Virus record (IMG/VR): IMGVR_UViG_3300006332_000010
Location: 1-36,523 of that record
Length of the DNA: 36,523 nucleotides
Source: a virus
Reading direction: 5' to 3' (one strand)
The position numbers and the translations under genes are program-made. Positions 29,398 to 31,628 of the stretch are shown here, in pieces (the stretch's first letter is position 1; every line of letters begins with the position of its first letter). Below the pieces are notes generated by a model. It had not been told where the DNA came from. It saw only the letters and a program-made list of their open reading frames with translations, and ran no database searches.

Positions 29398-30004
29398 TTT
29401 TTATCCTTTCTTTATCTTTACATCCTTCATTCTTCTTACAAACACATTGATTTGTCCATTCCCCACTTTCTCTTATCACTATCCCTAACTTTCTAAGCAA
29501 GCAAATATTTATTCCTACGAATCCTGTTACGTAGTCCTTGTTTGTTTTTTCTTCAAAATCAAAACCACTACAATTCAAAAGGGAATAAGATTTTTTTGCA
29601 TCAACAACGGCTAGTCTAATAAGTCTTTCTTTTTCATAGTCAACAACACAATAGATATCTAAGTCGGCGTTATATAGTTTATTAATTTCTGTAAGGTAGC
29701 CTGAGCTTTTAGATCGAAATGTGACATCGTTATAATCTTTAGCAGATTTGATATTACGTATTCTAAGTCCTGCCTGAGCAAGACGCCTCCTATAGATTGG
29801 ACTGTTTAGATATATAGCTGTGCCCATATTCAGAATTAAATCTGTAGCTTCTTCAACATCTTGTTGCTGTGATGCGACAGTAATGATTGCGTTCAATTCA
29901 TTTTCTATAATAGGGTTCAGCCATTTTTGTGCTTCTTCTTCATCTTGTTTTTGCCTAGTATAGTTTTCTGCCCTGTTATGGTATGCATCAGGTTGTTTTA
30001 TCAT
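29339..30004 (-). CDS. Hypothetical protein with Cys/His-rich C-terminus
   Basis: This 221-aa protein (ATG 30004; a TTG at 30010 gives 223 aa) has a helical N-terminal half and a middle part (DLDIYCVVDYEKERLIRLAVVDAKKS) of alternating strands and charged residues, faintly like a PD-(D/E)XK-type core. The last 40 residues hold CVCKKNEGC, then LC and HTH, a probable metal site. Its tail is encoded in DNA that also encodes the start of the next gene. A nuclease is possible but not shown. Confidence 0.55.
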   Translation of the reverse strand: MIKQPDAYHNRAENYTRQKQDEEEAQKWLNPIIENELNAIITVASQQQDVEEATDLILNMGTAIYLNSPIYRRRLAQAGLRIRNIKSAKDYNDVTFRSKSSGYLTEINKLYNADLDIYCVVDYEKERLIRLAVVDAKKSYSLLNCSGFDFEEKTNKDYVTGFVGINICLLRKLGIVIRESGEWTNQCVCKKNEGCKDKERIKNAKTLCKNNEHTHPDMFNM

Positions 30005-31109
30005 CTCCAAATTTCCCTTCTTCTAACCCCCAGGTATCATACCCCTCCCTATTTTCCCTGGAAAAAATATCTATTCGTGGCTCTGGGCTTACCCTTCGGA
30101 CCACATCGTAAAACTCTTCTGGCTTTCTGCTATGTTCCCTTCTTTCTGCTTCAAAACAAGTGAAGAAATTTTTTGTTTCAAGGAATGGTTGTGCTCCTTT
30201 TCTTGCCAGTAAAACAAATTCACAATTAAATTGCGGTAATCCTACTGGCTGGAATCCTCCTTTCTTATGCCACACAAATGTTGAAAGATATGTAAAGTCC
30301 CACGCATCTAATATTTCAAAACTAGATCGAAGATATTTCTGTGTAGTCCATAGCCATAGATGACATTCATCATGTGCTGGTAGTTTGAAGTCTTTGATTT
30401 CATCTACCGTCATCGTTGCGTAATCAAAGTTTTGTTTGTCAAACGTTCTGTTTTCTAGTTGTATCCTGTCTATATCCCAGGGTGGATCAATGACAATGGT
30501 TCGGTACTGCCCTTCAGGTGGCTTTATGGCTAACGCTTCTCTACGTAACTTTTCTTTTTGAGCTTTTAGAACCTCCTTTTTTTCCAAACGAATCTTTGTT
30601 GCCATCCTCAGAATTTCATCTTCACCTATAATCTCTCGGTTAACTTGCTGTAAGGTCTTTTGTCCGCTTTTCATTTCTTCAAACAGTTCTGGTGTATTTT
30701 CCTTTATTCTTTTAGCTAACTTAATGTATGCTGGTGATACTTGTAACATTGCACCAGCTTCACTCTGAGATAGATAGCTAATATTAGCTATCTTCGACCT
30801 TGCATGTACTCCTTGACTCAAAGTAGCAATCTCTGCACCAAGAGCTGCACGCTGCGATGCAGTGAGGTGTCGTCGGTGCAAGTTAGAAGAAAGAACAAAG
30901 GCTAATGGATTTTCACCCTGGTATTGGGTCCATTCTGGTTGCACGTCTACTTCCATACACGCTAAGTATCTGTTACGCCCATCTAATATCTCGTCGCCTA
31001 GTAATACTATTGGATTTTGCAATCCGTTTTCTTTTATGTCGTCACACAAAAAAGTAAAGTCTGTACCTTCAATGAGTGGAAATAGATCTGCATATGGATG
31101 AAACTTCAA
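29988..31109 (-). CDS. ParB-like/MT-A70 N6-adenine DNA methyltransferase fusion
   Basis: This 373-aa protein combines a ParB/Srx-like N-terminal domain (ILDGRNRYLA at 41-50; helical LTASQRAALGAEIA and SQSEAGAMLQVSPAYIK region to about 160) with a C-terminal MT-A70 methyltransferase carrying DPPW (208-211) and HLWLWTTQKYL. It should methylate adenine at N6 using S-adenosylmethionine, with the N-terminus helping target DNA. Start is TTG 31109 with AAGGAG 6-7 nt upstream. No cognate restriction nuclease is seen. It lies 20 nt downstream of a folded RNA element. Confidence 0.85.
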   Translation of the reverse strand: MKFHPYADLFPLIEGTDFTFLCDDIKENGLQNPIVLLGDEILDGRNRYLACMEVDVQPEWTQYQGENPLAFVLSSNLHRRHLTASQRAALGAEIATLSQGVHARSKIANISYLSQSEAGAMLQVSPAYIKLAKRIKENTPELFEEMKSGQKTLQQVNREIIGEDEILRMATKIRLEKKEVLKAQKEKLRREALAIKPPEGQYRTIVIDPPWDIDRIQLENRTFDKQNFDYATMTVDEIKDFKLPAHDECHLWLWTTQKYLRSSFEILDAWDFTYLSTFVWHKKGGFQPVGLPQFNCEFVLLARKGAQPFLETKNFFTCFEAERREHSRKPEEFYDVVRRVSPEPRIDIFSRENREGYDTWGLEEGKFGDDKTT

Positions 31110-31128
31110 TGAACGCTCCTTCGGTATG

Positions 31129-31195
31129 GCCCCTTGACCCTGTCACTCCCCAGTTATAGAACCGCTGTCGGTTGCAGTTCTCAGAGTCAAGGGGC
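31129..31195 (-). ncRNA. Structured 67-nt RNA element before the methyltransferase start
   Basis: On the minus strand, 31195-31182 and 31142-31129 form a 14-bp stem, all paired with one G-U pair; on the plus strand the same place is a C-A mismatch, so the minus strand is the functional one. Inside it, 31181-31158 forms an 8-bp hairpin with an 8-nt loop (AACCGACA), followed by a 15-nt single-stranded run (31157-31143, AUAACUGGGGAGUGA). It begins 11 nt after the upstream stop and ends about 7 nt before the AAGGAG of the TTG-started methyltransferase gene. No U-tract follows, so it is not a standard terminator. It may be a riboswitch-like or processing element. Confidence 0.65.
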
Positions 31196-31205
31196 TTCTG
31201 AATAA

Positions 31206-31628
31206 TTACCCTACAATAGCTTGTGATCGCCAGACGTTATGGTTACTGCCTGTTCCATTGTCGTCTTTAGAGCAGTAGTATTTTGCTGGTACTTGTTGAC
31301 CATCTATGTTGTCATATTCTTGCCACTTGGGTAGTGTTTCCTTTAGCTGAATCCCCTCATGTTCTGGGCAGTAAAGTGTAACGCCTTGTTGGTCGGCAAA
31401 ACTTTGCTTTTCTTCTGGTGATGCTGTTGGTCTCGACTCCTGTGCTGGTCTAGCGGACCCTGTACTACCACCCATTGGTGGTGCTGTACCAAACAGCCCT
31501 TCCATTTGATCTATGTGCGATACGATTAGTTCTAAATCTGTTACAAGGGGTCGCCACTCGATTAAATGGTTACGGTACATCCTTTGTACTTTGACCTCCC
31601 ATAATTTTTCTTGTGATTCATCAGTCAT
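31206..31628 (-). CDS. Hypothetical protein with C-terminal Cys/His motif
   Basis: This 140-aa protein has a helical N-terminal part, a Pro/Ser-rich linker (about 55-75) and a C-terminal segment with YCPEHEGI and KYYCSKDDNG, a possible zinc site. AGGAGG precedes its ATG. It is upstream of the structured RNA and methyltransferase. Function unknown. Confidence 0.6.
   Translation of the reverse strand: MTDESQEKLWEVKVQRMYRNHLIEWRPLVTDLELIVSHIDQMEGLFGTAPPMGGSTGSARPAQESRPTASPEEKQSFADQQGVTLYCPEHEGIQLKETLPKWQEYDNIDGQQVPAKYYCSKDDNGTGSNHNVWRSQAIVG

Follow-up and report, generated by a model that had tools for sequence, protein, structure and literature searches.

A candidate portable mRNA hairpin with a fixed loop motif between genes of phage operons

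The element and its neighbouring genes

Examination of the window, which is the whole 36,523-bp IMG/VR virus record analysed here, revealed a structured element between two genes of the minus strand, just ahead of the ribosome-binding site of a methyltransferase gene. The features of the locus are listed below; L227, G002 and G006 are related contigs described in the next section.

29988..31109, minus strand: downstream gene, MT-A70 methyltransferase with a TTG start (Pfam PF05063, 3e-19)
31107-31109, minus strand: TTG start of the downstream gene (from sequence)
31116..31121, minus strand: Shine-Dalgarno (SD) sequence AAGGAG, 7 nt past the stem (from sequence)
31122-31128, minus strand: spacer CAUACCG (from sequence)
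31129..31195, minus strand: whole structured element, 67 nt (from the fold; near-copy in L227:2704-2771)
31129..31142, minus strand: 3' arm of the outer stem, CAGGGUCAAGGGGC, pairing with 31182-31195
31143-31157, minus strand: 15-nt stretch AUAACUGGGGAGUGA (from the fold)
31145..31153, minus strand: conserved motif CUGGGGAGU, identical to the loops of G002 and G006
31158..31181, minus strand: optional 5' inner hairpin AGAACUGC-AACCGACA-GCGGUUCU (from the fold)
31182..31195, minus strand: 5' arm of the outer stem, GCCCCUUGACUCUG, pairing with 31129-31142
31206..31628, minus strand: upstream gene, 140 aa, whose homologs in L227 and G006 end just before the element

Folding bore out the original prediction of a 14-bp outer stem and an 8-bp inner hairpin lying between two genes before an SD. 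The 67-nt minus-strand RNA, read from 31195 to 31129, has a folding energy of -37.2 kcal/mol (z -6.0; shuffles as good, 0/200) and is the lowest-energy site of the window (14,584 windows of 67 nt, both strands, 5-nt steps). The outer stem comprises 13 Watson-Crick pairs and one U.G pair, and the inner hairpin has one U.G among its 8 bp and a loop of 8 nt. The plus strand of 31129-31195 folds less stably, at -28.1 kcal/mol. The 15-nt run described as unpaired is present, but it can form a mini-stem, ACU-GGGG-AGU, in which the motif makes a CU-GGGG-AG mini-hairpin. It is in this run, and not in the big stem, that the conserved sequence of the element resides.

The view that the element is not an intrinsic terminator, a GC-rich hairpin with a U-tract, also held, as the stem is followed by CAUACCGAAGGAG, which has no U-tract, and no terminator-like site was predicted there. 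No promoter was seen beside the element on the coding strand. A search of Rfam 15 at the gathering threshold returned no family in the window, L086, L091, L104 or L227, which agrees with the earlier failure to place the element in a riboswitch class; at a relaxed threshold the elements of the window, G002 and G006 gave chance-level matches only, those of the window being to microRNAs. At the DNA level, BLAST with the locus matched nothing in phages.

Inspection of the sequence suggests that the N-terminal part of the MT-A70 gene product is ParB-like. The upstream protein, of 140 aa, matches nothing in Pfam or PHROG; it carries CPEH...YC residues, and this C-terminal CxxH...C suggests a zinc ribbon. 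The protein may represent a small zinc-ribbon family adjoining a site of gene exchange.

Near relatives of the window phage

Portal searches yielded seven related contigs, and profile scans with AAA and portal alignments found no additional relatives. Among the phage records searched, the group has no close relative; one near-relative is found in a marine Dehalococcoidia MAG. This near-relative, L227 (phage contig JAKUNM010000045.1), is binned in Dehalococcoidia ALOHA_A2.0_7, and the binning, possibly an error, hints at a Dehalococcoidia-type host for the window phage. A covariance model searched against 393 Dehalococcoidia genomes gave chance-level matches only, and no inspected match stood before an SD and ATG.

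The element of L227 (2704-2771) differs from that of the window by one change in about 76 nt, which turns C-G into U.G. The last 180 nt or so of the upstream gene are about 70% identical between the two phages, whereas the stop codon and the element are near-identical; identity then breaks off at the 3' base of the stem, and HTH genes (PF12728) follow, with no methyltransferase. The element is therefore better conserved than the coding sequence beside it and is not tied to the methyltransferase.

Two other relatives carry comparable hairpins. The portal of G002 is 90% identical to that of the window, and the contig has a homolog of the upstream gene and no MT-A70 match. After its ParB-like gene comes CACCUUGUCAUGGGU-AG-CUGGGGAGU-GCUCAUGGCAAGGUG, then UUUAUAC, then AAGGAGG, giving a hairpin with a 15-bp stem before an HTH-like gene; it was noticed by reading the intergenic sequence, without use of the motif. 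In G006 (portal 66%), a 19-bp hairpin with the loop AG-CUGGGGAGU precedes the AAGGAGG of a ParB-like gene. A search of nine related records for the shared loop, allowing one mismatch, brought it up, and an independent fold scan of the early region of G006 also ranks it first. Both contigs share the layout of stop codon, hairpin and SD, with the hairpin 6-8 nt before the SD; their stems are unrelated in sequence and their 9-nt loop is identical to window positions 31145-31153. Among the early genes of G002, a further strong hairpin region with a different loop precedes an SD (L013 10261-10320, minus strand).

Conservation and covariation in relatives, named as the check on the original prediction, were found as a kept element in L227 and as compensatory stems in G002 and G006; at the corresponding place in G003 and G007 there is no comparable intergenic hairpin. 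Of the proposal that the element acts at the ribosome-binding site of the methyltransferase, the cis-acting mRNA structure stands and the tie to that gene is not supported, the downstream genes of L227, G002 and G006 being different.

Members in other phages

Pattern scans combined with folding and open-frame filters revealed at least six further convincing members. In L091 the hairpin follows a DNA polymerase gene and forms a three-way junction (z -4.9), and in L104 it follows an SSB gene (z -6.3). The outer stem of L086 resembles that of the window. In L294, a contig whose terminase is 56% identical to that of the window, the hairpin precedes a tail-like gene; in L388 it precedes an HNH gene, and in L298, which has one mismatch and a 16-nt gap to the SD, a PHROG-2428 gene. 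Across these members the downstream genes are HNH, tail-like, PHROG-2428 and unknown ones. Except in L298, the gap between hairpin and SD is 6-9 nt in all members. The 5' inner hairpin is positioned in L091 as in the window and is present in the MFE structure; that of L086 is less supported, being seen by eye and not in the MFE, and G002, G006, L104, L294, L388 and L298 lack it. At their simplest, members consist of a plain hairpin of about 30-50 nt, and several have only 10-15 bp. The GGGG of the motif is predicted to be about 100% unpaired in most members.

Some hairpins were set aside. Those of L088, L113, L125 and L303, with CTGGGGAG in the stem, were judged to be of a different, terminator-like type. 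An intergenic hairpin between hutH and a permease gene in two Clostridium species (L149:5187 and L190:4107) has a CUGGGGAGU loop and one covarying pair; it was not counted as a member, its gap to the SD being longer and its status uncertain. Short hairpins with CUGGGGAG/CUCCCCAG stems also occur 5-10 nt before SDs in L088, L113, L096, L125, L303 and L400 and form a separate repeated type.

The range of downstream genes bears on the idea that the element regulates the methyltransferase as a riboswitch or small RNA. The structured leader does adjoin a SAM-dependent enzyme. However, each distinct carrier has a different downstream gene, there is no Rfam match and the stem sequences are unconstrained. 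Riboswitches have a conserved ligand-binding core before functionally related genes; here the genes are unrelated and 9 nt are conserved. The ligand response considered in the original prediction is unlikely, since beyond the 9-nt loop little sequence is constant and the simplest members have no more than a plain hairpin. A free small RNA is made less likely by the position of every member, after a stop codon and before an SD, and by the lack of a promoter visible beside the element on the coding strand. We regard this whole alternative as highly improbable.

Frequency of the hairpins and covariation

A generic translational insulator, or chance, would explain the element if phage SDs are often preceded by strong hairpins and the shared loop is a coincidence. 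Hairpins with a stem score of at least 20 do occur at about 2.4% of viral SD+ATG sites, and most pattern matches have no hairpin: the first motif pattern in viral contigs listed 38 matches, with real hairpins only in G002 and G006, and those listed in the scan of genome contigs were mostly chance ones in coding sequence, L227 excepted. Against this, strong hairpins (stem score at least 24) were observed at 6 viral motif sites and expected at about 0.15 (151 sites, among the matches listed). Without the discovery pair G002/G006, four remain against the same expectation (Poisson P ~2e-5). The expectation is based on a rate of 0.00099 per position for this score at random positions before SD+ATG in the same viral contigs, and swapping flanks between motif matches likewise gave 0.15. 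Further, the same 9-mer loop stands at comparable places in two relatives, and the element is near-identical in L227. This explanation, already disfavoured on these counts, appears quite improbable.

Of the 145 stem pairs in ten members, 144 are preserved (123 Watson-Crick and 21 G.U, with 1 mismatch). The G.U pairs would become A.C on the other strand and therefore indicate an RNA of mRNA sense; a DNA-level function such as a cruciform or origin is disfavoured on the same ground. In seven simple hairpins, 97% of cells are paired, covarying pairs are 9/9 and the closing pair is always a wobble (5 U.G and 2 G.U). This covariation is support and not proof, because five of the seven were chosen as hairpins and loop pad nucleotides were trimmed or N-filled to align the columns. 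Conservation of the motif and covariation outside L227, G002 and G006 are partly by construction, since the other members were retrieved by the exact motif and picked for a hairpin. The borders of the motif rest on few lineages, namely the window with L227, G002 and G006.

Possible function and alternatives

Structure, motif, compensatory stems, mRNA-sense polarity, position and the swap of downstream genes can all be read from the sequences. We tentatively propose that the element is a portable, intercistronic, cis-acting mRNA hairpin whose fixed apical motif would be read by a putative trans-acting factor setting the expression of the next cistron. The hairpin would be transcribed within a polycistronic phage mRNA, fold between the stop codon and the next SD, and display CUGGGGAGU, whose GGGG loop is closed by CU/AG, at a distance from the SD that is 6-9 nt in most members. 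A putative trans-acting RNA-binding factor would read the motif, and the bound or unbound hairpin would set translation efficiency of the next cistron or mRNA processing there. Recognition of the loop is favoured because loop, polarity and distance to the SD are constant while stem sequence and gene vary, and given this fixed geometry the state of the hairpin would set translation or processing of the next cistron; factor binding and changed downstream expression are what we infer from these regularities. A simple SD-sequestering switch is not indicated, because the SD is not systematically buried across members (unpaired 0.23 to 0.83). A shared trans-acting gene was sought among the carriers and none was found; the 140-aa protein has no homolog found in unrelated carriers, so that no phage protein is known to be common to all.

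The main rival is a site between cistrons for RNase III processing or mRNA stability, comparable to T7 R1.1: the stem would be cleaved or would shield an end, setting the downstream cistron apart, and the loop would be incidental. The 67-nt element of the window, with two stems and an asymmetric internal loop between genes just before a ribosome-binding site, has this anatomy, a long duplex with an internal loop between phage genes; L227 and L086 share it and the simpler members do so in part. Bacterial RNase III is not known to require a loop sequence, yet here nothing but the loop is fixed in sequence, and several members are simple 10-15-bp hairpins. T7 R1.1 itself lies between genes 1.0 and 1.1 and is 60 nt long, with an asymmetric internal loop (PMC6121014), and cleavage by RNase III can make an mRNA either more or less stable (PMC6993053). 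The element is alike in being an intergenic, irregular hairpin of about 60 nt with an asymmetric internal loop before the next gene of a phage operon; it differs in that what is conserved is a 9-mer in the loop while the stems vary freely, that many of the members are plain hairpins and that cleavage is a candidate only. On balance, we find RNase III processing somewhat unlikely.

The loop could also contact the 30S subunit itself, being SD-like or mimicking rRNA, and act as a standby site. The motif CUGGGGAGU is an exact match to the conserved 16S rRNA stretch CCTGGGGAGTACGG (E. coli NZ_AP018488.1:229182-229227, H111). UGGGGAG can pair with the anti-SD (-7.9 kcal/mol vs -10.7 kcal/mol for AAGGAGG), the distance to the SD is near-constant and a ribosomal target would fit unrelated hosts. 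However, a 9-mer matches 4.5 kb of rRNA by chance in about 2%, the similarity ends at 9 nt and in the folded motif AG is paired, leaving GGGG alone exposed. The identity is possibly a coincidence, and a direct ribosomal contact seems rather improbable.

Known phage systems resemble the element in part. The mom mRNA of phage Mu has a hairpin bound by the zinc-finger activator Com, with the loop motif CC(N)2-3GAG (PMC6483171). Here too a phage mRNA hairpin with a loop motif stands at a translation start, and mom is, like the methyltransferase, a DNA-modification gene. In contrast, CUGGGGAGU is without CC, all members having NCUGGGGAGU and no Com-type site in the loop; the SD is not enclosed in an inhibitory stem, and the element is not bound to one gene. 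The manA and wcaG motifs are structured RNAs of environmental phages before varied genes (PMC2864571). They are described motifs with conserved structures of their own, unlike the present hairpin without Rfam match, and resemble it as structured phage RNAs ahead of varied genes.

If the motif is a recognition site, the loop-bearing hairpin would be a general control part of phage operons, changing place independently of the genes under its control. A bolder version, which we consider unlikely, is an undescribed phage-wide hairpin class whose CU-GGGG-AG motif would be read by a conserved host component, the ribosome or an rRNA-binding protein, plugging cargo genes into ready-made translational control. 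The defined 9-nt loop is directly usable to fish for a binding factor.
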